Source: Sulfuricaulis limicola
Lineage (GTDB): Bacteria > Pseudomonadota > Gammaproteobacteria > Acidiferrobacterales > Sulfurifustaceae
Direction of reading: 5' to 3'
Assembly (NCBI RefSeq): GCF_002355735.1
Contig: NZ_AP014879.1
Location: 2,759,501 to 2,823,500, forward strand
DNA: 64,000 bases
In this document: positions 12,796 to 28,193 of the stretch, one piece after another
How the letters are laid out: every line of letters begins with the position of its first letter
How positions within the stretch are numbered: position 1 is the stretch's first letter
Translations under genes and position numbers: made by a program
The notes under the pieces: generated by a model
Told to the model about the DNA's origin: nothing
Databases searched by the model: none
Seen by the model: only the letters and a program-made list of their open reading frames with translations

Positions 12796-12809
12796 TTGAT
12801 ATTTATCAA
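12796..12809. promoter_or_regulatory. FNR-type binding site 1 upstream of MtrC-like gene
   Basis: TTGATATTTATCAA is a perfect match to the FNR consensus TTGAT-N4-ATCAA. It lies about 96 bases upstream of the predicted start site at 12899, in a distal activator position. Confidence 0.8.
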
Positions 12810-12811
12810 AA

Positions 12812-12825
12812 TTGATATTTATCAA
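12812..12825. promoter_or_regulatory. FNR-type binding site 2 upstream of MtrC-like gene
   Basis: A second copy of TTGATATTTATCAA, identical in all 14 bases to site 1, with centres 16 bases apart. It is centred about 80 bases upstream of the predicted transcription start. Confidence 0.8.
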
Positions 12826-12850
12826 ATAAATTGGCCCCCGCTCAGGCTGA

Positions 12851-12892
12851 TTGATATATCTCAATGACGCAATCCCCCGTCCGGCGCTTAAT
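12851..12892 (+). promoter_or_regulatory. class II FNR promoter of MtrC-like gene
   Basis: TTGATATATCTCAA (12851-12864) differs from the FNR consensus at one base. A -10-like CTTAAT lies at 12887-12892, giving a start near 12899 and placing the box centre (12857.5) at -41.5, the classic position for FNR activation. The leader would be about 60 bases. Confidence 0.65.
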
Positions 12893-12959: not shown

Positions 12960-15248
12960 ATGAACATCAATAACCGATCCGCGTTTCAACGGTTCAGTTT
13001 CATTTCGGCTTTAGCGGTGGTCGCCCTGGCGGGTTGCAGCGGCAGCGACGGCGAATCCGGCACACCGGGGACATCCTCCGGCGACACCACCATCATTGTC
13101 GCGCCACCGGGTGGCGTGACATCGCCGTCTACCGCCACGGCGTTAACCATGTCCATCACCGGGGTCACCATCAGCAGCCCGCCGGTGGTCACATTCAGCA
13201 TCGCCAATCAGGACGGCGTCCCGGTTGCCGGACTCACCAAGGCAGACCTGCGATTCAATATCGCGAAGCTGGTTCCGGGCACCAATGGCGCGCCCAGCAA
13301 TTGGCAAAACTACATCAACGTCGCCAGAAGCGGGGCCGTGGCGGGATCACAGGAGCGCAACATGGCGGGTGCCGTGCTGGTCGACCACCTGAACGGCACC
13401 TACACTTATACTTTTGGCACCGACATCACCAGCGCCGCGGCCAACCCCTGTCCGGCGCCGTGCACCGATGCGAGCGGCAACCCCCTCGATATCAGTTATC
13501 AACCGAGCCTGACGCACCGCGTCACGATCCAGCAGGGCAACTCCGCTTACCCGAAATACAACGCGACGTACGATTTCGTGCCGGGCAGCGGTCCGGTCGC
13601 GAACGCGCGCGATATCGTCACAACGGCGAAGTGCAACGAGTGCCACAACCAGCTCTCGCTTCATGGCAGTCGCGTCGAGACCAGGCTGTGCGTCACCTGT
13701 CACAATCCGGGCACCTGGTCGGCCGGTACGCCGAACAAGACGGTTGACTTCAAGGTGATGATCCACAAGATCCATCGCGGCCATGATCTCCCGAGCGTCG
13801 TTGCCGGCGGCACCTACGCAATCGGAAGCCATGATTATTCGGATGTCCACTTCCCGCAGGACATTCGCAATTGCACCAAGTGTCACGACGGTGCCGCGAG
13901 CGCGCAGGGCAACAACTGGCAAACCCAGCCGAGTATCGCCGCCTGCGGCTCGTGCCATGACAACATCGACTTCAGCAAGGCCAGAAGCGCCGATCCCAAT
14001 GGCCACTCCGGCGGCGATGTGAGCGCCGTCACCGACAGCGAAAGTTGCCTCGGCTGCCACTCGTCCGGCGAGGAGGCCGGCAGCATCGCGGAGAAGCATG
14101 CCCTGCCGGCACTGCTGAAGGCGGAAGGGGCGAAGTACAAACTCAAGATCGTGAGCGTGACCAACACGGCGCCGCTGGCGTTGCCGACCATCAGGTTTTC
14201 GATAACCAATGCTGCCGATGTGCCTTACGACATCGCAGCCACGCCGGCCATCACCGGTGGCAGCATGAGCCTGCTCATCGGCTGGAGCACGACCGACATC
14301 AACAACAATGGTCGCTCCAACTCCCAGCCGATCAGCATCAGCCTGCTCAGCAGCGGCGCGCTGGCGGGGACCGTAACCAATAATGGCGACGGCACCTACA
14401 GTGTTACTTCCACGACCGCCGTTCCGGCGGACGCGACGGGCAGCGGCCGGGCCGGCTTCCACGCGCGCTTTTCCGCCGACGTCAATGGCGATGCGACCAA
14501 AGAGACGATCCAGGTCAAGAGCGTGGTGAAGGACTTCCTCATCACCGGCGCCTCCCTGGTGGCACGGCGCACCGTGGTCGACATGGCCAAGTGCAATCTG
14601 TGTCACGAGCGCTTGAGCCTGCATGGCGGCGCGCGCACGGACGAGCCGCAGATCTGTGTCATGTGCCACAACCCGAACGCGACCGACGTGGGCCGGCGTC
14701 CCAAGACCGGTGGCATCCCGGTGGCCGCGACCATGCTGGATCTCAAAAAGGAGGAGTCGATCGACTTCAAGCGCATGATTCACGGAATCCATGCGGCTGA
14801 CATGCGTACGAAGGGGTTGGTCGTGTACGGCTTCTTCTCGGCGCCGGCAACCCAGAACCCGGTTGACTTCAGCCACGTCCGCTTCCCGGGCATTCTGAAG
14901 GACTGCGCGAGTTGCCATACCACCTCGTCATACCAGCTGTCGGGGGTCTGGGCATCACCGACGCAGAGCGGCATCCTGGGCAGCACCATCGATACCGCGC
15001 CCAGCGCGGTCGACGCCGCGACGCTGACCACCGGGCTGGCCGATCAGACCGACGACCTCAACATCTCGCCGACCGCCGCGGTGTGCTCGTCGTGCCATGA
15101 CGACACCCTGGCGCAAACGCACATGACCTGGGGTACCGGGACGTTCTCGGCAACGGAAGCGACCATCAACACCAACCTGGAGACCTGCTCCATCTGCCAC
15201 GGGCCGGGCTCCGTCGCCGACATCAAGACGGTCCATGGCGTGAAGTAG
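12960..15248 (+). CDS. OmcA/MtrC-family decaheme cytochrome c lipoprotein
   Basis: Outer-surface multiheme cytochrome, the terminal element of Mtr-type extracellular electron transfer. The 762 residues start with a lipoprotein signal ending LAGC (Cys26). Ten CXXCH motifs fall in two pentaheme groups: first Cys at about 225, 244, 305, 329, 363, then 545, 566, 649, 709, 743. Each group opens with CNxCHxxLSLHG, and a beta-rich domain precedes each, as in MtrC, OmcA and MtrF. It is separated from the MtrA- and MtrB-like genes (25051, 26127) by zwf, a glucoamylase and other genes. Three FNR-type boxes precede it. MtrC versus OmcA subtype cannot be settled by eye. Confidence 0.93.
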   Translation: MNINNRSAFQRFSFISALAVVALAGCSGSDGESGTPGTSSGDTTIIVAPPGGVTSPSTATALTMSITGVTISSPPVVTFSIANQDGVPVAGLTKADLRFNIAKLVPGTNGAPSNWQNYINVARSGAVAGSQERNMAGAVLVDHLNGTYTYTFGTDITSAAANPCPAPCTDASGNPLDISYQPSLTHRVTIQQGNSAYPKYNATYDFVPGSGPVANARDIVTTAKCNECHNQLSLHGSRVETRLCVTCHNPGTWSAGTPNKTVDFKVMIHKIHRGHDLPSVVAGGTYAIGSHDYSDVHFPQDIRNCTKCHDGAASAQGNNWQTQPSIAACGSCHDNIDFSKARSADPNGHSGGDVSAVTDSESCLGCHSSGEEAGSIAEKHALPALLKAEGAKYKLKIVSVTNTAPLALPTIRFSITNAADVPYDIAATPAITGGSMSLLIGWSTTDINNNGRSNSQPISISLLSSGALAGTVTNNGDGTYSVTSTTAVPADATGSGRAGFHARFSADVNGDATKETIQVKSVVKDFLITGASLVARRTVVDMAKCNLCHERLSLHGGARTDEPQICVMCHNPNATDVGRRPKTGGIPVAATMLDLKKEESIDFKRMIHGIHAADMRTKGLVVYGFFSAPATQNPVDFSHVRFPGILKDCASCHTTSSYQLSGVWASPTQSGILGSTIDTAPSAVDAATLTTGLADQTDDLNISPTAAVCSSCHDDTLAQTHMTWGTGTFSATEATINTNLETCSICHGPGSVADIKTVHGVK

Positions 15249-19424: not shown

Positions 19425-20267
19425 TCACGCCGCGACACGTCCCTGGCGGCGTGACCGGTATTTCTTTCTCGAAGAGGTCGCGCGCGGCGGATCGCCCGCC
19501 AACGCCTGGAGGCGAGGGCGGACGGAAACGACGATGCGCCCGCGGGGTGCGTTGATAATCCCCTTGCGCCGCAGTCCCGCCATGATGCGGCTGACTGTCT
19601 CCACCGTGAGACCCAGGATCTCCGCCATCTCCTGGCGCGACAGATGCAACGCTCCGGCCTTGCCGCTTCCGCCCGCGGCACCTGGCGGATACAGGCTCAA
19701 CAACAGCGCAGCGACCTTTTCCATCGCCGTCTTCTGGCCCAGGGCACGAATCATGTTGCGCGCCTGCGCCAATTGCTCATTGACGGCAAGCAGGATATTC
19801 AGCGACACCTGCGGCGCTTGCGCGAGCAACCATGCGATATCGTCATGTTTGATCCGGCAGAACACGGTCGGCGTCAGGGTCTCGGCGCTGTAGCTGTGAG
19901 TGGCATTGCCGACGTCATCGAAGCCGAGGAAATAGCCGGGTCCGACCAGGTTGAGGAGATGCACGTGACCGGTGATGTCGGTGCGCGTCAGTTTGAGCTG
20001 CCCTTCACGGACCACGTACAGGTATTTCGACGGATCGCCGGCACGGAACAATATCTCGCGCGGACCGCTGTGGCTGGAACCGAGGCGGCCACGCAACTCG
20101 CTGACCTGCCTGGCGGAAAGACCCGCATACAGTTTTGCCTCGCAGTATTCGCAATCGTTGATCCCGTACGTACGGGGTAGCGGGTCGCGTTTACCGGTCG
20201 GCGGAGAAGTCCCGCACGAGGCGCCGGCGCACGCCTCCGACCGCCCGCCGCGCCTTTTTCGCGTCAT
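19425..20267 (-). CDS. Crp/FNR-family transcriptional regulator with variant Cys cluster
   Basis: Probable oxygen- or redox-sensing regulator. The 280-residue form has a cyclic-nucleotide-binding-like beta-roll, a dimer helix and a C-terminal helix-turn-helix, LSRQEMAEILGLTVETVSRIMAGLRRKG. Its recognition helix keeps the E-x-x-S-R pattern of E. coli FNR (TVETISR), predicting TTGAT-N4-ATCAA recognition. Candidate cluster ligands are Cys13, 18, 39, 42 and 137; Cys137 aligns with FNR Cys122 (context ETLTPTVFC). The N-terminal spacing CX4C...CX2C differs from FNR. The ATG at 20267 has a GAGAGG site upstream; a start at 20300 would overlap the predicted -10. It faces the same way as the CbcL-like gene, which ends 100 bases upstream. 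Confidence 0.9.
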   Translation of the reverse strand: MTRKRRGGRSEACAGASCGTSPPTGKRDPLPRTYGINDCEYCEAKLYAGLSARQVSELRGRLGSSHSGPREILFRAGDPSKYLYVVREGQLKLTRTDITGHVHLLNLVGPGYFLGFDDVGNATHSYSAETLTPTVFCRIKHDDIAWLLAQAPQVSLNILLAVNEQLAQARNMIRALGQKTAMEKVAALLLSLYPPGAAGGSGKAGALHLSRQEMAEILGLTVETVSRIMAGLRRKGIINAPRGRIVVSVRPRLQALAGDPPRATSSRKKYRSRRQGRVAA

Positions 20268-20330
20268 GGATGCCTCTCGTCCCATCATCATGCCTGTCAT
20301 TTATCCTGACACGGAAGTCCGCAGGACTAA

Positions 20331-20344
20331 TTGACAATCGTCAA
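20331..20344. promoter_or_regulatory. FNR-like palindrome upstream of the regulator gene
   Basis: TTGACAATCGTCAA is a perfect 5+4+5 palindrome with the FNR geometry but C/G in place of T/A at the inner position. A -10-like GATAAA lies on the minus strand at 20305-20300. The palindrome centre is then about 41-44 bases upstream of the inferred start, which suggests autoregulation. Confidence 0.5.
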
Positions 20345-20367: not shown

Positions 20368-22404
20368 TTATTGGGTAAAGCTGTGCGGCGTATGGCCGCC
20401 GAAGAAGCCCACCGTCACCAGGACCAGGAGCGTCAGGCCGCAAATGATCAGGGTGATGCCCAATACCTTCGATCCCAGCGTCATCGGCTGCGACGGCGCC
20501 TGCACCAGATACTTCTCCAGTTGTCCGCTCTCGACCAGGCGCCGGTACTGCAGCGTATGTTCGCGCTTGAACTCTTCCAACGACTGGGTGCCGGTGAACA
20601 TCACGATGTCCGGCGGCGGCAGCTTGTCCGGCCGGAAATGGTTGTTGAAGAAGTGCACCGTGAACAGGAACACCGCGGCCAGGAACGCCTCTTCGCCGTG
20701 CACCAGCGCCGCCACGTTGAACACCCATCCCGGGAAGATCGCCGCGGTCACGTTCGGGAAGGCCAGCAGCATGCCGGTGCCGCCGATGGCGGCCATGCCC
20801 CAGAACACCGCCCAATAGTCGAATTTCTCCCAGTAGGTCCAGCGGTCGAAGGTCGGCCGTGGTCCCTTGTTGAAGAACCACTTGAACATGCCGATGGCGT
20901 CCTCAAGGTCCTTCCAGTTCGGTACCAGCGAATCGGGACCGAACCAGCGGAAGGTCTTGCGGTTGCGCCAGATATTGATGGCGACGGCGACCAGGTGCAG
21001 GAAGAAAATGCCGAGCATGATCGCCGCGCTGGTGCGGTGAATGATTCCCGCCACCTGCGGGCCGCCGAGCGCCTTCATGATGACCGGCGCCCAGTCGGTA
21101 TAGGAATAGAACACCGCCATGCCGGTCAGGATCAGCGTCATGACGCTCAGGGCGAACAGCAGATGCGCGAGCCGCCACAGGGGCCCGAAGCGGCGCACCT
21201 GTTTGGCCTCCGCCAGCGGCAATTCGTCCACGCGCACGCGCGGCCTGAGTTCGCCCTCCTTGCGGCGTTCGTATTCCCGGTACCACCACAGCAAGGAATG
21301 CACCCAGAAGTAGGCGAACACGAACACCAGCAGCCAATGCATGAATCTCGAGGCGATCCACATCTGCGGATAGCGCTTGAAATCGTGGTCGTTGGCATGG
21401 GGACCGAAAGTCGCGAATCCCGCCGTCGCCAGCGGAAGTTTCTTGCCGTCGTGACACTGCCGGCAGGTTTCGAGGCGGTTGTCCGGGTGCACCTTCGATT
21501 GCGGGTCGTCCACCCGGAGAATCTTGTGGCTGTCGTGGCAGTCGTAGCACTTGGCCGTGTAGGTGTAGCCCAGCTTGGTGACCTGGCCGTGATAGGTGTC
21601 CCGGTAGGTGAGGAAATTTTCCAGGTGGCAGGTGCCGCAATTCTCGATGATCAGCAGCTTGAAAGCGTCCTTGGACGTGTTCGCGATGCTGTGGGTGGTG
21701 TGGCAATCCGTGCACACCGCCGCCTTGGGATTTTTTTTCTCCATGGTTTCGACGCCATGCACCGATTCCGCGTAACTCTCGAGCTGATCGGTGTGGCACT
21801 GCTCGCCGCAAACCTTCGACACCGTCAGGTGCCAGTCGGTGCGCCTGGAAGTGCCGCGTGGCGGCACGTTGAAATAGTGTGAATCGTGGCAATCGTCGCA
21901 GGCCGCGTTGGGGCGGGTTTTGTCGTCGGTGCTCGGCCGCGCGTGAAACGAATTCTTGTACGCCTCGATGTTCTGGACCACGATTCCCAGTCTCGCCCTT
22001 TCCCTGGTCAGGTTTTGCTGCTTCGCGGTTTCCCACAACGCCTCGTGGCAGGTCACGCAGTTGGCCTTGGGCGCCGGCCCTTTCTTGTGCGGCGCCTTGC
22101 TGCTGGTGATGTCCTGGTGACAGCCCACGCAGGTCATCTCGCCGTGCACGCCTTTTCCGAACTGATTCTCCTGTATCGCCTGCAAGGTGCGCGGCTTGCC
22201 CTCCGCTCCCGGCGCCGTCAGTTTGTCCGCCTTGGCGCCGTGGCAGATCAGGCAGGTGCTGTTGTCCAGTTTTTCCGCGGCCGGCGGCGCGCCGCGGCTC
22301 CCGGCGTCGACGGCCGCGGTCGCCTCGGCCGGCCGCAGCAGCGCCGGCAGCGTCAGACAAACAGCGGCCAGCATCATCCACGCTGTCAGTTTGGAAATGC
22401 GCAT
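20368..22404 (-). CDS. CbcL-like nonaheme cytochrome c fused to membrane cytochrome b
   Basis: Probable inner-membrane quinone:cytochrome oxidoreductase. After a signal peptide (about 30 residues), the periplasmic part holds eight CXXCH sites (first Cys at 51, 92, 116, 169, 231, 256, 286, 314) and one CX3CH site (Cys199-His204), nine in all. The C-terminal half from about residue 350 has six predicted membrane helices with paired His residues (HWLLVFVFAYFWVH, IIHRTSAAIMLGIFFLH, VHGEEAFLAAVFLFTVH), as in diheme HydC/FdnI cytochromes b. This plan, nine c-hemes plus diheme b, is that of Geobacter CbcL. The gene is divergent from the cytochrome-MtrAB operon and shares its FNR-box intergenic region. 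Confidence 0.85.
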   Translation of the reverse strand: MRISKLTAWMMLAAVCLTLPALLRPAEATAAVDAGSRGAPPAAEKLDNSTCLICHGAKADKLTAPGAEGKPRTLQAIQENQFGKGVHGEMTCVGCHQDITSSKAPHKKGPAPKANCVTCHEALWETAKQQNLTRERARLGIVVQNIEAYKNSFHARPSTDDKTRPNAACDDCHDSHYFNVPPRGTSRRTDWHLTVSKVCGEQCHTDQLESYAESVHGVETMEKKNPKAAVCTDCHTTHSIANTSKDAFKLLIIENCGTCHLENFLTYRDTYHGQVTKLGYTYTAKCYDCHDSHKILRVDDPQSKVHPDNRLETCRQCHDGKKLPLATAGFATFGPHANDHDFKRYPQMWIASRFMHWLLVFVFAYFWVHSLLWWYREYERRKEGELRPRVRVDELPLAEAKQVRRFGPLWRLAHLLFALSVMTLILTGMAVFYSYTDWAPVIMKALGGPQVAGIIHRTSAAIMLGIFFLHLVAVAINIWRNRKTFRWFGPDSLVPNWKDLEDAIGMFKWFFNKGPRPTFDRWTYWEKFDYWAVFWGMAAIGGTGMLLAFPNVTAAIFPGWVFNVAALVHGEEAFLAAVFLFTVHFFNNHFRPDKLPPPDIVMFTGTQSLEEFKREHTLQYRRLVESGQLEKYLVQAPSQPMTLGSKVLGITLIICGLTLLVLVTVGFFGGHTPHSFTQ

Positions 22405-22537: not shown

Positions 22538-22551
22538 TTGATATTTATCAA
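22538..22551. promoter_or_regulatory. FNR-type site between the divergent cytochrome operons (left)
   Basis: TTGATATTTATCAA, identical to the sites at 12796 and 12812. On the minus strand a -10-like AATAAT lies at 22518-22513, so the box is centred about 39-41 bases upstream of the likely CbcL-like gene start site. Confidence 0.78.
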
Positions 22552-22573: not shown

Positions 22574-22613
22574 TTGATATTTATCAATGTCCGATGAAGT
22601 GGCACACTATTAA
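22574..22613 (+). promoter_or_regulatory. class II FNR promoter of the cytochrome-MtrAB operon
   Basis: A fourth copy of TTGATATTTATCAA at 22574-22587, centre 22580.5. A -10-like TATTAA lies at 22608-22613, predicting a start near 22622, which puts the box at -41.5. The leader to the ATG at 22685 is about 63 bases. Confidence 0.78.
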
Positions 22614-22684
22614 TCTTGCGCAATCCACAGACTCTTCCAGAGCGCTCCTTACAAGAAATGGTCTATCGTTGAATGGAGAGACAA

Positions 22685-23131
22685 ATGAAATCGACCACCG
22701 TCATTTCGGCGTTCCTGGGAACAATCCTGGTTGGCCTTGCCACCGCCGGCTACGCCGCGGACAAGACCGACGCCCGCAAAGTCGACATCGGCAAGGCCGA
22801 GTACGAACAGAAGTGCACCATTTGTCATGGTGCGCTGGGAAAGGGTGACGGCGCGTACAGCGTGATGCTGAAGAAACCCGCGACCGACCTGACGACGTTG
22901 TCCAAAAAAAATGCCGGGGTGTTCCCCTTCGCCCGGGTGTTCGAGACCATCGAGGGCACGCATGAATTGAAAGCGCACGGCACGCGGGAAATGCCGATCT
23001 GGGGCAAGGAATACCGGAGCAGCAAATATTATGATGACTATTTGCACGATCCCGAATCGGATCGATCGTATTTTGCCCGTTCACGCATACTGGCGCTGAC
23101 CGAATACATCTATCGGCTGCAAGCCAAATAG
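22685..23131 (+). CDS. periplasmic monoheme cytochrome c
   Basis: A 148-residue class I cytochrome c. A signal peptide ends at GYA-AD. The single heme site is CTICH (Cys44), followed by GALGKGDGAYS, and the likely axial Met lies in TREMPIWGKEY. The ATG at 22685 is preferred over one four codons earlier because GGAGAG sits four bases upstream. It is the first gene of a five-gene run of electron carriers on the plus strand and is preceded by two FNR boxes. It may shuttle electrons between the CbcL-like quinol enzyme and the outer-membrane conduit; that role is inference. Confidence 0.9.
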   Translation: MKSTTVISAFLGTILVGLATAGYAADKTDARKVDIGKAEYEQKCTICHGALGKGDGAYSVMLKKPATDLTTLSKKNAGVFPFARVFETIEGTHELKAHGTREMPIWGKEYRSSKYYDDYLHDPESDRSYFARSRILALTEYIYRLQAK

Positions 23132-23187
23132 GGAATTTCTGAATCAGCCACTTGAAACATTTGCCTAAACAAGCTCGGAGAAATCTC

Positions 23188-23541
23188 ATGAAACACAAAA
23201 TATTCGCCAGCGCGCTGCTCGCCTTTTCCGCCGTCGTGTTCGCTTCCTCCCCCGCCGTCGCCGCCGACATCGATGCCGACGCGGCCCAGAAACTGGCGAA
23301 GAAAAACAATTGCTTCAAGTGCCACGCCATCGACAAGACCAAGAAGGGACCCTCCTACAAGAAGATCGCGGCCAAGTACAAGGGCAAGCCCGATGGCGAA
23401 GCCAAGGTGATCGAAAACTTCACCACGGCTCCGATGGTGAAGATGGAAGATGGCACCGAAGAAAAACACAAGGTTATCGATACCAAGGACATGAAAGAGA
23501 TGAAGAATCTGGCGCAGTGGATTCTGTCACTCGATAAGTAA
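23188..23541 (+). CDS. small periplasmic class I cytochrome c
   Basis: A 117-residue c-type cytochrome resembling c551/c552 carriers. A signal peptide ends at PAVAA-D. The heme site is CFKCH (Cys42) followed by AIDKTKKGPSYKKIA, the usual K-x-GP-x segment, and the distal Met is in FTTAPMVKM. An ATG at 23152 is in frame, but the one at 23188 starts directly at the signal peptide and has a CGGAG upstream. Fifty-six bases separate it from the previous cytochrome, so both are probably on one transcript. Confidence 0.9.
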   Translation: MKHKIFASALLAFSAVVFASSPAVAADIDADAAQKLAKKNNCFKCHAIDKTKKGPSYKKIAAKYKGKPDGEAKVIENFTTAPMVKMEDGTEEKHKVIDTKDMKEMKNLAQWILSLDK

Positions 23542-23663
23542 AAAGCAGTCCAAGCGACGCGGCCCGTGGCGGGGCTGGCAACGGTTTAGTCACAAGGATG
23601 GGCTTCGACATGGATTTTGCATGAGGCTCTTGAGTTACATCATCAGTCATGGAGGAAATCATC

Positions 23664-24965
23664 ATGAACAAAAGAGCATTCATCCTGGCCTTTGCCGCCC
23701 TGGCCGCCGGGCCTGCCCTGGCCGCCGATCCTGCCACCATCGACTGGTCGAAGATCCCCGTTGTCAAAGTACCGCTGTTCTATCCGGGACAGTCTTCCTA
23801 TGAATGGCTGCGCAGCGACGCCCACAAGGGTGCGGTGAAAGAGGTCATGCGCGGAGACGCCTGCCTCTCCTGCCATGACGAAGAGGATGCGGAAAAAGAC
23901 ATCGGGAACAAGCTGGTGAAGGGCGGAGCGCTCGAACCGACGCCGGTCAAGGGCAAGGATGGTCACAAGGATCTCGCGGTGCAGGCAGCGTTCGACGACA
24001 AGAATGCCTACCTGCGCTTCCAGTGGAAAACCCAAAACAATTTCCCGGGCAGCGAGCATCAGTACCTGCGCTTCGACGGCAAGGAGTGGAAGGTTTACGG
24101 CTATCCCAAGCTCGACAAGGTGGTGCAGGAAGGCACGCAGCCGGGCATCTACGAAGACCGCATGTCGGTCATGATCGACGATGGCAAGGTGCCGGGATTC
24201 GCCCAACAAGGCTGCTGGCTCACCTGTCATGATGGCCAGCGCGACATGCCGAAGCAGTTCACCAAGGAAGAGGTTGAAGCCAACGCATTGCTTACCGCCA
24301 TCAAGAAGAAAGACGTACGCAAATACCTGCCGGAAAGCCGGACCAACCCGTCCGACTGGAAGACTGGCAAGTCGGTCGAGGAGATTGCCAAAATCAAGGC
24401 TGCCGGCGGCTTCGTCGACCTGATCCAGTGGCGCGCCCACCGCAGCAATCCGGTCGGCATGGCTGATGACGGCTATGTCCTCGAGTGGCGCCTCGGTGAT
24501 GCCGGCAAAGACATGTTCGGCAGCAACGCCGACAAAGAGACCCACCAGCCCAAGTTCATGTGGGACGCGAAAAAGGTCGGTTACAAGTCCATCACCGCCA
24601 AACAGTTGCGCAAGGGCGACCACTTCCTGATTCGCGAAAAGAATGCCGTGCCATTTGATCCCAAGGCGGGCTGGAAGGAAGGCGACATGATTCCGGATTA
24701 CATCGTCAGTCGCGAAGATGCAAAGGGATCGGCCGCCGACAACAACGCCATCGCCAGCTGGAAGAAGGGCATGTGGACCGTGGTGATGATCCGTCCGCTC
24801 GGCCTGACCAACGATGACGACAAGGCGCTCAAGGCGGGCGGCGTCTATAACGTCGGCTTCGCGGTGCATGACGACAACATCACCACGCGCGGGCATCAGG
24901 TTTCATTCGTCAGGACACTGGGGCTGGGCGCCAAGGCGGACATCCAGGCCGTCAAGCTTCCGTAA
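23664..24965 (+). CDS. ethylbenzene-dehydrogenase-related heme-binding protein
   Basis: Periplasmic protein of the cytochrome c-552/DMSO-reductase-like heme-binding (EB_dh) type, 433 residues. A 20-residue signal peptide ends ALA. It has a CLSCH site at Cys67 and a CX3CH site, CWLTCH, at Cys184. The rest is beta-rich, with segments such as AYLRFQWKTQNNFPGSEHQYLRF, FVDLIQWRAHRSNPVGMADDGYVLEWRLG and YNVGFAVHDDNITTRGHQVSF that are typical of the domain. The ATG at 23664 has GGAGGA seven bases upstream. Its place between monoheme cytochromes and MtrAB points to a periplasmic electron relay; the exact partner is unknown. Confidence 0.85.
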   Translation: MNKRAFILAFAALAAGPALAADPATIDWSKIPVVKVPLFYPGQSSYEWLRSDAHKGAVKEVMRGDACLSCHDEEDAEKDIGNKLVKGGALEPTPVKGKDGHKDLAVQAAFDDKNAYLRFQWKTQNNFPGSEHQYLRFDGKEWKVYGYPKLDKVVQEGTQPGIYEDRMSVMIDDGKVPGFAQQGCWLTCHDGQRDMPKQFTKEEVEANALLTAIKKKDVRKYLPESRTNPSDWKTGKSVEEIAKIKAAGGFVDLIQWRAHRSNPVGMADDGYVLEWRLGDAGKDMFGSNADKETHQPKFMWDAKKVGYKSITAKQLRKGDHFLIREKNAVPFDPKAGWKEGDMIPDYIVSREDAKGSAADNNAIASWKKGMWTVVMIRPLGLTNDDDKALKAGGVYNVGFAVHDDNITTRGHQVSFVRTLGLGAKADIQAVKLP

Positions 24966-25050
24966 TTTGATATTGATTGCGCCGTGGCAGATAGAGCACA
25001 GGAGATGGAGATATCGGCTGGAGGTTAACGAAAAGACGGGGGACTCAACA

Positions 25051-26088
25051 ATGAAAATTACCGGACGAATACTGGTTGTCTGTATCTGCCTCGGCCTCGG
25101 GGGCGCCGCCAGCCCCTTGCTGGCCGAAGAAGCCAAACCCGCCGCAGACCAGGCGGAAGCCAAAGCGGCGCCCAAGGACATGGTCCTCAAGGGCGATGCC
25201 GTGTGCACCCAGTGCCACGACGAGACCGAAGTCTATCCGGTGCTGGCGATCGGCAAGACCCGGCACGGCGTGATGGCGGACAAAAATACACCGACTTGCA
25301 CCACCTGCCACGGCGAGAGCAAGAGCCACCTGAACATACCGAAGGGCGAGAAGGATCGTCCCAAGCCGGAACGCCTCTTCGGCATGCGCCCGACGATCCC
25401 GGCCGAGCTCCAGGTGGAACGCTACTTCGGGTTGTTCGGCAAGAACACCAGCACGCCGGTGGCCGAACGCAATGCACCCTGCCTCGAGTGCCACAACGGC
25501 GGGGAGCGCATTCACTGGGTCGGCAGCGCGCACGAGGCGGGCGATGTCGCCTGCACTTCCTGTCATCAGATTCACACGACCCACGACCGGGCTCGCGACA
25601 AGCATGCCCAGACGGAGATGTGCTTCGCCTGCCACAAGGAACAGCGCGCCCAGATGAACCGGCCGTCGCGCCACCCGATCAAGGAAGGCAAGGTCGCCTG
25701 CTCGGATTGTCACAATCCGCACGGCAGCGCCGGACCCAAGCTGCTGGTGCGCGACAACGTCAATGACACCTGCTACCAGTGCCATATGGAAAAGCGCGGG
25801 CCGTTCGTGCGCACGCACGAGCCGGTGCAGGAGGACTGCTCGATCTGCCACAACCCGCATGGCGCCACGAATCCCAGCCTGCTCAAGCTGCGCTCCCCCT
25901 TCCTGTGCCAGTCGTGCCACGAACCGACCTCGCATCATTCGACCGTGCCGGAGGACGGCGTGGCGGGCGGCCTGAACCCGTCCACCGCCCAGGCCGTGAT
26001 CATGGCGCGCGGCTGCACGAACTGCCATACGCAGATCCACGGCAGCAACAACCCTACCGATGGCACCGGCCGCGGGTTCCGCCGTTAA
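25051..26088 (+). CDS. mtrA: MtrA/DmsE/PioA-type periplasmic decaheme cytochrome c
   Basis: Decaheme wire that threads through the MtrB porin to carry electrons across the outer membrane. The 345-residue product begins with a signal peptide ending LLA and carries ten CXXCH motifs (CTQCH, CTTCH, CLECH, CTSCH, CFACH, CSDCH, CYQCH, CSICH, CQSCH, CTNCH), the number in MtrA and PioA. SDCHNPHGSAGPKLL and ICHNPHGATNPSLL are the family repeats. It is followed after 38 bases by an MtrB/PioB-like porin. Subgroup (MtrA reducer versus PioA/MtoA oxidiser) is not resolved. Confidence 0.95.
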   Translation: MKITGRILVVCICLGLGGAASPLLAEEAKPAADQAEAKAAPKDMVLKGDAVCTQCHDETEVYPVLAIGKTRHGVMADKNTPTCTTCHGESKSHLNIPKGEKDRPKPERLFGMRPTIPAELQVERYFGLFGKNTSTPVAERNAPCLECHNGGERIHWVGSAHEAGDVACTSCHQIHTTHDRARDKHAQTEMCFACHKEQRAQMNRPSRHPIKEGKVACSDCHNPHGSAGPKLLVRDNVNDTCYQCHMEKRGPFVRTHEPVQEDCSICHNPHGATNPSLLKLRSPFLCQSCHEPTSHHSTVPEDGVAGGLNPSTAQAVIMARGCTNCHTQIHGSNNPTDGTGRGFRR

Positions 26089-26126: not shown

Positions 26127-28193
26127 ATGAACGCGATTAGAAAGAGCTTTCTCCCGGGCATGCTGGCCGCGGCGGTGCTGGCCACACTTGGCTCCGCTGT
26201 CGCGGCGGAGGTTGACGAACTCACCGAGCTGACCAAGCCTGAAAGCACGGTCAGCGTGGGCATCGGGCATGTATCCCGGGACAACCAGCGCTTCGGCCAG
26301 TACACCGGACTGAACGAGAATGGTACCTACGGATTGGTCGATCTGGATTTCGTGCAGCGCGACGAAACCACCGGCACCTGGCTCAGGCTCAACGGACGCA
26401 ACCTGGGCTTCGACGATCGCGAGTTGCGCCTCGAGCATGAGCGCCAGGGCGACTGGGGCTACTTCATCGACTTCAGTCAGACACCGCGGTTCGACCCGTA
26501 CACCGTGACGACCACGCTCTCCGGCATCGGCACCACCACGCAGACTGTCGGCGGCAGCGCGACAGCGCAGCAATACCATCTCAAGACCGAGCGCGATGCG
26601 CTGACGCTCGGGTTTAACAAGGAACTCTCGGACAACCTGGGCCTGCAAGTGCGCTTCCGCAACGAGGAGAAGGACGGCGAACGCCTGTGGGGCCAGGGCA
26701 CCTTTGGAACCTGGCGCTTCCTGACCGACCCCATCGACCAGACGACGCGCCAGATCGACGCCACGCTCAGCTACACAACCCGCAACCTGCAGCTTACGGG
26801 TGGTTACTACGGCACCGCGTTCGACAACAGCAATAACGTCCTCAACGTGCCGGGTTGCGCCATCTTTACGGGCTGCGACCAGATGGGCCTGCCGCCGGAC
26901 AATGAATCGCACCAGTTGCATCTGGCCGGAGGCTACGACTTCACCAAGACGACCCGCGGAACCTTCAAGGTCGCTGTCGGCCGGATCACGCAAAACGAAG
27001 CCTTCGCCACCACGCCCACCGCCGGCGCTCCGGGCAGCCTCGACGGCCGTATCGACACGACCCTGGTGCAGGCCGGCCTGACCGCGCGCCCGATGTCAAA
27101 GCTGACGTTGCGTGCGGATCTGCGCTACGACGACCGTGACGACAAGACACCCGTGTTCACCTACTTTCCGCTCGCGGGAGTATCCGGCTCGACCACCGAC
27201 GGCACCAATGAGCCACGCGACATCAAGACCATCTCGGGTAAATTTGAAGCGAGCTATCTGTTGCCGATGGCCTTTCGCCTGACCGGCGGCGTGGACTACG
27301 TGGAGAAGACGCGCAACAGCCCGCCGGTACGCTCGGTCAGCTTTCGCGAAACCACCGACGAGACGTCTTTACGCACCGAGCTGCGCCGCTCGATCTCCGA
27401 GACCGTGACCGGCGCGGTGTCGTTCATTCACAGCAACCGCGGCGGCTCCGATTGGCTGCTCAATCCCCTGTACATCAGTGGCGCCACCGGCAGCAACCAG
27501 GTCGCGCCGCTGCACTTGGCGGACCGCGACCGTGACCTGTGGCGACTGACATTGAACTGGATGCCGACCAACCCCCTGTCGGTCAGCCTGCGTCTCGATC
27601 AGGCACGCGACGAATACAGCGGGCGCGGCATCAGTGTCGTCGACCAGGCGGTGCGTGAAGGCAGGGCGGAGAACTACTCACTGGATGCGTCCTACAGCTT
27701 CACTGACGAAATGCAGGGGACGGCCTGGTACTCGGTCAATGACACCAGCCTGGAAAGCGTCCAGTGCCGCGCCGGGGCGGCGGATGCCTGCACGCCAGGG
27801 ACCCAGCAGGTATGGGGATCGAACGTGCGCAACCTCGCGGACAGCTTCGGCCTTGGGCTACGCGCCGCACTCACTTCCAAGATTGAGCTGAGTGCGGATC
27901 TATCCCACTCGAAGGTGCGCGACGAGATGGAGCTGAGCTCGATCGCCGGCGCGGCCGTCAGCCCGCTGGACAACATCAACACCAAGGTCACGAGCCTGAA
28001 TCTGTCCGTGAAATACGCGCTGCAGCGCAATGCGGGCATGCGGGTGATGTACATCTACGATCGCTACCGGACCGACGACTGGACCTGGGCGAACTGGAAC
28101 TACAGCCCCGCCGATGGTGGCACCACCGTCCTGCAGGAGCCGACCCAGAAGGTGAGCTTTGTCGGTGTTTCGTATTATTACCGGTGGTGGTAG
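26127..28193 (+). CDS. mtrB: MtrB/PioB-family decaheme-associated outer-membrane porin
   Basis: A 688-residue beta-barrel predicted to sheath the MtrA-like cytochrome. A signal peptide ends at VAA-E. The mature chain has many alternating amphipathic strands with the family style (STVSVGIGHVSRDNQRFGQYTGLNENG, WGYFIDFSQTPRFDPYT, LTLGFNKELSDNLGLQVRFRNEEKDGERLWG) and ends in aromatic residues, VSYYYRWW. The N-terminal CXXC known in Shewanella MtrB is absent; the four Cys lie as two pairs (about residues 248/253 and 547/554), probably in loops. It is the last gene of the run and is convergent with mtnD. Confidence 0.93.
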   Translation: MNAIRKSFLPGMLAAAVLATLGSAVAAEVDELTELTKPESTVSVGIGHVSRDNQRFGQYTGLNENGTYGLVDLDFVQRDETTGTWLRLNGRNLGFDDRELRLEHERQGDWGYFIDFSQTPRFDPYTVTTTLSGIGTTTQTVGGSATAQQYHLKTERDALTLGFNKELSDNLGLQVRFRNEEKDGERLWGQGTFGTWRFLTDPIDQTTRQIDATLSYTTRNLQLTGGYYGTAFDNSNNVLNVPGCAIFTGCDQMGLPPDNESHQLHLAGGYDFTKTTRGTFKVAVGRITQNEAFATTPTAGAPGSLDGRIDTTLVQAGLTARPMSKLTLRADLRYDDRDDKTPVFTYFPLAGVSGSTTDGTNEPRDIKTISGKFEASYLLPMAFRLTGGVDYVEKTRNSPPVRSVSFRETTDETSLRTELRRSISETVTGAVSFIHSNRGGSDWLLNPLYISGATGSNQVAPLHLADRDRDLWRLTLNWMPTNPLSVSLRLDQARDEYSGRGISVVDQAVREGRAENYSLDASYSFTDEMQGTAWYSVNDTSLESVQCRAGAADACTPGTQQVWGSNVRNLADSFGLGLRAALTSKIELSADLSHSKVRDEMELSSIAGAAVSPLDNINTKVTSLNLSVKYALQRNAGMRVMYIYDRYRTDDWTWANWNYSPADGGTTVLQEPTQKVSFVGVSYYYRWW

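Follow-up and report, generated by a model that had tools for sequence, protein, structure and literature searches.

A probable MtoC-type quinone oxidoreductase gene beside mtrAB in Sulfuricaulis limicola, with an EB_dh-domain cytochrome gene and shared FNR-type palindromes

We identified a gene of the mtoC/cbcL type at 20368..22404 (minus strand) in a 64-kb window, the whole stretch of DNA analysed, from the genome of Sulfuricaulis limicola. The gene product belongs to the CbcL/MtoC/MtrH family, and we consider it quite probable that it serves as the quinone oxidoreductase of an Mto-type chain in this organism. In such a chain electrons would pass between the ubiquinone pool and the b hemes of the protein, whose nine-heme domain would be connected through monoheme and EB_dh-domain cytochromes to MtrA within MtrB and on to an extracellular OmcA/MtrC-family protein, with electrons moving in either direction.

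Both the family and S. limicola as a carrier have already been published, so the protein is not new. A 2018 survey counts 138 CbcL/MtoC/MtrH homologs across 15 phyla, describes mtrAB or mtoAB in gene clusters with such homologs in several species, and places the MtoC of Gallionella capsiferriformans ES-2 in a cluster with homologs from various sources, among them S. limicola, a sulfur oxidizer (PMC6295460). The protein published for S. limicola is very likely the product of 20368..22404, because the gene is present as a single copy in the genome (E 0.01). The original prediction presented this plan outside Geobacter-type bacteria as a discovery, a claim that the published record overtakes, and a CbcL-type protein beside MtrAB in S. 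limicola is neither a surprise nor a new system. Less ordinary than family membership are a shared palindrome of FNR type and the pairing, in some relatives, of MtoC with an EB_dh cytochrome without nearby MtrAB. S. limicola HA5 is described as a gammaproteobacterium, as predicted for the host, that is aerobic and autotrophic, oxidizes sulfur and grows on reduced sulfur; the accessible portion of that description reports neither Fe(II) oxidation nor extracellular electron transfer (PMC5024460). The genome comprises 2,864,672 bases in one contig and is 99.93% complete.

The 678-amino-acid protein consists of an N-terminal hydrophobic helix, probably a signal peptide, followed by a nine-heme-motif domain and a six-helix FdnI-type diheme-b domain. 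Eight CX2CH motifs (residues 51, 92, 116, 169, 231, 256, 286 and 314) and one CX3CH motif (CGEQCH at 199) all lie within residues 51-318, forming the nine-motif N-terminal multiheme c domain of the family; 20,000 shuffles of the residues gave a mean of 0.027 CX2CH motifs and a maximum of 2. Pfam assigns cytochrome c7/c3-type heme domains to the N-terminus and Ni_hydr_CYTB to the C-terminus (33.2 bits, cut-off 30.1). In an alignment of 47 rows, nine periplasmic histidines (87, 106, 154, 176, 216, 238, 272, 293 and 336) are invariant in addition to those of the membrane domain, a number sufficient for nine bis-His hemes. The CX3CH motif is not a peculiarity of the S. limicola protein: among the 73 named relatives that reach 600 amino acids or more (from the best 80 of at least 584 loci), 43 have eight CX2CH and one CX3CH, 29 have nine CX2CH, and one has neither arrangement. 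The trait requires at least 12 changes on a 112-row tree.

An AlphaFold2 model of the protein (47-row alignment, mean pLDDT 82.4) contains the C-terminal six-helix membrane domain of the family, with long helices at residues 346-382, 408-432, 449-480, 523-548, 559-589 and 639-669. Membrane histidines 414, 456, 569 and 584 are invariant in all 47 rows, and 369 and 470 are nearly so. The motif scan, the model and the invariant histidines bear out the original description of eight CXXCH and one CX3CH sites preceding six membrane helices with histidines. The top chain in VIA-align was FdnI (1kqf_C; Z 13.4, 199 of 216 residues, 3.1 A, model residues 399-631), followed by E. coli hydrogenase-1 cytochrome b (Z 9.9 and 9.8) and by the remaining chains at 6.9 or below; in helical bundles, Z values up to about 13 can arise from a common arrangement. 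The likeness to FdnI is visible only in this realignment of the top Foldseek chains, and Foldseek itself gave no matches to the whole model at E 0.001. The whole protein found no match among PDB sequences at E 1, and profile searches of those sequences returned multiheme or chance matches and did not recover FdnI. In hhalign, FdnI and the membrane domain gave a local E of 8.3e-05. In a multiple alignment, FdnI His 18, 57, 155 and 169, which we take to be heme-b ligands, pair with His 414, 456, 569 and 584. The VIA-align score and this pairing, with the ligand roles assumed, identify a diheme b fold of the HydC/FdnI type with conserved histidines.

Geobacter sulfurreducens CbcL (GSU0274) is described as having nine c hemes, six helices and two b hemes (PMC9129911), and the S. 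limicola protein resembles it in each of these respects. The published range for the family is 3 to 23 heme motifs, nine of them in CbcL, with six helices as the usual number. Published identity between CbcL and MtoC/MtrH is about 35% (PMC6295460), so the two are separate branches. The S. limicola protein shows full-length similarity to loci of MtoC/MtrH-bearing genera, with 52-60% identity over 90-99% of the protein (best single segment) in Gallionella, Dechloromonas, Rhodoferax and Ramlibacter; these loci stand in here for the MtoC/MtrH proteins of D. aromatica, ES-2 and R. ferrireducens. Identity is 58-60% for Dechloromonas hankyongensis (L078) and two Gallionella MAGs (L049, L054). The protein matches MtoC of Gallionella and Dechloromonas and MtrH of Rhodoferax in length and in its nine-heme, six-helix plan, and MtoC/MtrH loci likewise have MtrA, MtrB and a monoheme cytochrome as neighbours. 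However, mtoC in S. limicola is adjoined by genes for an EB_dh cytochrome and an FNR-family protein and is transcribed away from mtrAB, unlike the Gallionella, Dechloromonas and Rhodoferax loci. The nine motifs, the six helices, the FdnI-type domain and the homology to MtoC-type proteins confirm the CbcL-like architecture and family membership originally proposed. Elsewhere, mtoC has been described near mtrCAB, with the name MtrH used for another protein (PMC8805035), and MtrH/MtoC has been placed within mtr clusters (PMC4245776).

The mtoC gene is divergent from a series of plus-strand genes encoding two monoheme c-type cytochromes (22673..23131, 152 amino acids; 23152..23541, 129 amino acids, class I and MtoD-like from position alone), an EB_dh-domain cytochrome (23649..24965), an MtrA/DmsE-type decaheme cytochrome with ten CX2CH motifs (25045..26088) and an MtrB/PioB outer-membrane porin (26127..28193). 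The mtrAB pair starts 2.6 kb past the mtoC start, so the protein is indeed encoded beside MtrAB, on the opposite strand. In the S. limicola genome, the mtrA gene is the only one above the family cut-off and the mtrB gene is the only MtrB match. An OmcA/MtrC-family decaheme cytochrome with ten CX2CH motifs is encoded some kb from mtoC (12960..15248, plus strand), and a CRP/FNR-family gene, assigned by Pfam, adjoins mtoC (19425..20300, minus strand). An Rfam search of the window gave nothing above gathering scores. Elsewhere in the genome, at 887974-889299 (L128, L129, L131), an open frame of 711 codons matches the DmsE/MtrA decaheme model weakly several times over and probably encodes a further large multiheme cytochrome.

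A profile scan of named genomes (E 1e-3) found at least 584 stretches encoding a relative, and the best 80, all from Pseudomonadota or unplaced MAGs, were kept. Among these best 80 of at least 584, MtrA (coverage of at least 80%) and MtrB occur together near 24 loci, a relative of the 23152..23541 monoheme cytochrome near 53, and an OmcA/MtrC relative near 10. The flanks are uneven, with at least 5 kb on both sides in 40 of the 80; in those 40 loci, MtrA with MtrB is found in 17, the EB_dh cytochrome in 4 and the monoheme cytochrome in 31.

No CymA/NapC/NirT protein (PF03264) scores over the cut-off in the S. limicola genome. The sole match is a stretch inside mtoC itself (17.5 bits, cut-off 24.1), which does not place the product in that family. 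CymA and ImoA, of the NapC/NirT family, are like the mtoC product in their proposed role as a link between quinone and periplasmic cytochromes (PMC13390432). However, they belong to a different protein family. The mtoC product could fill the CymA step given that no CymA/NapC protein is over the cut-off, and the replacement suggested in the original prediction is therefore possible. Two menaquinone markers were searched for, MenD and MqnE. MenD gave two matches, both under the cut-off (65.9 and 48.1 bits against 244.2), and MqnE gave no match in the genome; because of this, S. limicola would appear to be a ubiquinone-only cell. Since neither marker was found, the low-potential role known from Geobacter CbcL, also part of the original prediction, is unlikely here.

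Inward flow, with Mto-type electron uptake in a chemolithoautotroph, is the likelier direction, and we give it about an even chance of being correct. In Sideroxydans ES-1, which is known to take up electrons, menaquinone genes are also described as lacking (PMC13390432), and by this analogy the lack of menaquinone markers leans towards uptake. The 2018 survey could not tell quinol oxidation and quinone reduction apart by any sequence feature (PMC6295460). S. limicola, which is cultured and has a complete genome, would be a clean test case for the direction of electron flow through MtoC because it has one mtoC, one mtrA over the cut-off, one mtrB match, no CymA over the cut-off and, apparently, ubiquinone only.

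It is possible, although rather unlikely, that electrons flow outward instead, with ubiquinol being oxidized at low oxygen and its electrons exported by way of MtrAB and then the MtrC-family protein to extracellular oxidants of sufficiently high potential. Mtr conduits operate outward in Shewanella (PMC8805035), and in S. limicola FNR-type sites precede mtoC, the divergent cytochrome genes and the MtrC-family gene, with the FNR-family gene adjoining. Five exact copies of TTGATATTTATCAA are present in the 2.86-Mb genome and none of the reversed control, this one centre being the one counted genome-wide. Two of the five lie in the interval that separates mtoC from the divergently transcribed cytochrome genes (22538-22551 and 22574-22587), and two lie upstream of the OmcA/MtrC-family gene on the plus strand (12796 and 12812, spanning 12796-12825), together with a plus-strand one-mismatch TTGATNNNNATCAA site at 12851 (within 12796..12864). 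At up to two mismatches, the window contains 24 TTGATNNNNATCAA sites against an expectation of 10.8, a count not reached in any of 100 shuffles. The fifth exact TTGATATTTATCAA site (genome 1285374) falls in the dsr cluster between dsrB and a dsrE/tusD gene. Perfect TTGAT-N4-ATCAA occurs in five of seven related stretches (L135-L138 and L140), with one-mismatch sites only in L139 and L141. The doublet at mtoC is found in two congeners, identically in L135, and in L136 with one copy reversed and one centre altered.

The FNR-family gene is a candidate regulator of the cluster. Its product does not reach the cut-off of any named NCBIfam regulator, scoring far under those of the FNR models, and its TVETVSR helix resembles that of E. 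coli FNR. A TTGACAATCGTCAA palindrome at 20331-20344, 30 bases upstream of the start of the FNR-family ORF, is possibly a site of autoregulation. A homologue with 66% identity lies beside mtoC in one congener (one of the seven related stretches), and none was found near mtoC in the 80 named loci (best 80 of at least 584). The shared palindrome points to a putative regulon that can be tested. However, such a palindrome may read oxygen or NO, with either sign, and export is further weakened by the narrow range of acceptors that would follow from the lack of a menaquinone marker and by the report that S. limicola is aerobic (PMC5024460). In addition, a one-mismatch copy of the palindrome precedes a gene for an octaheme cytochrome of the tetrathionate-reductase family (L161 2242-3867; genome about 2,197,000), and further one-mismatch sites are located near an ACR3 gene and in another stretch of the genome.

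A second alternative concerns the EB_dh cytochrome (438 amino acids; PF09459, E 1.9e-66), which carries one CX2CH and one CX3CH motif, both invariant in eight aligned sequences including that of S. limicola, and for which the structural model is poor (mean pLDDT 57.4). The EB_dh protein may form a periplasmic module with MtoC and a monoheme cytochrome, through which the quinone pool and a redox partner in the periplasm would be connected without an outer-membrane conduit. Among the 80 loci (best 80 of at least 584), the EB_dh cytochrome is encoded near mtoC in seven (L063, L065, L068, L073, L088, L095 and L102), and none of the seven has MtrB within the available flanks, which are short in L065 and L102. 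The order EB_dh gene, monoheme cytochrome gene, mtoC, on one strand, is found in L063, L065, L068, L073 and L095; no intervening monoheme gene was found in L088, and other genes intervene in L102. The EB_dh gene is also near mtoC in four of five mtoC-bearing genomes of the genus, S. limicola included, and one congener whose genome is 99% complete has mtoC and the EB_dh cytochrome and no MtrB match anywhere, which implies that the outer-membrane link is not obligatory.

However, S. limicola and the congener represented by L137 have MtrAB as well as the EB_dh cytochrome, and 73 of the 80 loci (best 80 of at least 584, with uneven flanks) show no EB_dh gene. In 11 other mtoC-bearing genomes searched at E 1e-20, the EB_dh match is full in two, partial in one and absent in eight. 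Within the order (57 genomes), an EB_dh relative occurs in 11 genomes, mtoC in seven and both in five, side by side in four and on different contigs in one, so that six of the 11 EB_dh genomes have no mtoC match. We regard a periplasmic module of this kind as doubtful. A connection of EB_dh to the irc genes (Slit_1321-1324) was also considered and finds no support, on indirect grounds: no EB_dh match was found in the eight genomes of Gallionellaceae, Ramlibacter, Dechloromonas, Rhodoferax and Duganella (11 tested, with ES-1 outside the sample). A literature search, with most subscription journals outside its scope, found no relevant paper on the combination of EB_dh, MtrB and extracellular electrons.

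The EB_dh proteins of Aromatoleum and Azoarcus (L154, L155; L088 7838-9133) are 82% identical to that of S. limicola, compared with 62-80% for four congeners, while the Aromatoleum MtoC beside the EB_dh gene is 55% identical to S. limicola MtoC. This difference suggests that the EB_dh gene was transferred independently of mtoC. A more speculative, rather unlikely reading is that MtoC forms a separate, mobile quinone-linked module with the EB_dh cytochrome, which has two c-heme motifs and a putative heme-b domain; a monoheme cytochrome often lies between the two, and the porin-cytochrome conduit would be optional. In S. limicola this module would be wired into MtrCAB and controlled, jointly with the MtrC-family gene, by a single FNR-type switch. 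If this is true, the module and the switch would together provide a low-oxygen extracellular electron route for a sulfur-oxidizing autotroph.

The remaining alternatives are far less probable. A CbcL of the Geobacter type, oxidizing low-potential menaquinol for acceptors below -100 mV, would account for the shared plan (nine c-type hemes, then six helices holding two b-type hemes), but is very unlikely given the MenD and MqnE results and the separation of CbcL from MtoC/MtrH as distinct branches. That the protein is the cytochrome-b (gamma) subunit of a conventional formate dehydrogenase or hydrogenase fused to a heme domain is highly improbable: the membrane domain resembles FdnI and hydrogenase-1 cytochrome b in its fold and in four heme-b ligand positions, but it has additional helices flanking the matched domain as well as the nine-heme-motif domain, TIGR01583 (formate dehydrogenase gamma subunit) matches at only 31.8 bits against a cut-off of 115.85, and the seven mtoC-flanking genes scanned include no formate dehydrogenase or hydrogenase subunit.

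Using E 1e-60, an mtoC match is present in 28 of 398 genomes in an even draw of the phylum that includes S. limicola, and in seven of the 57 genomes of the order. A tblastn search of plasmids found no relatives. In one genome (G005) the mtoC frame is 668 amino acids long and ends at its own TAA stop. The 112-row tree was built by a quick method and omits same-locus duplicates (L001, L013, L043-L046), weak loci (L008-L012) and two loci that are too short (L108, L124); at L049 and L054 no ORF passed the motif filter, yet the gene was found there by tblastn. Three congeners and two gammaproteobacterial MAGs have the proteins that group with the S. limicola protein (SH-aLRT 100), and the protein of a fourth congener (L005) lies apart among betaproteobacterial MAGs. 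Forcing the five genus rows into one clade costs 275 log-likelihood units (AU p 4.45e-11), the group being a taxon and the test having been run after the tree was known. Of the two origins originally offered, transfer or convergence, transfer is supported because the protein has full-length homology to MtoC-type loci and the genus rows do not form one clade. Convergence is rejected on the full-length alignment. The pattern fits transfer or replacement of mtoC within Proteobacteria, with old paralogy followed by loss as the alternative.

In Sulfurifustis variabilis skN76 (G011; 3,958,814 bases) neither mtoC (E 1e-60) nor MtrB gave a match, so this species and S. limicola, two cultured neutrophilic relatives, differ in the trait. 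Other genera of the family and order (L008-L011) have a separate cytochrome b that shares about 30% identity with the membrane domain. In L009 and L011 this cytochrome b is encoded between two multiheme c genes, a split form of the same plan.
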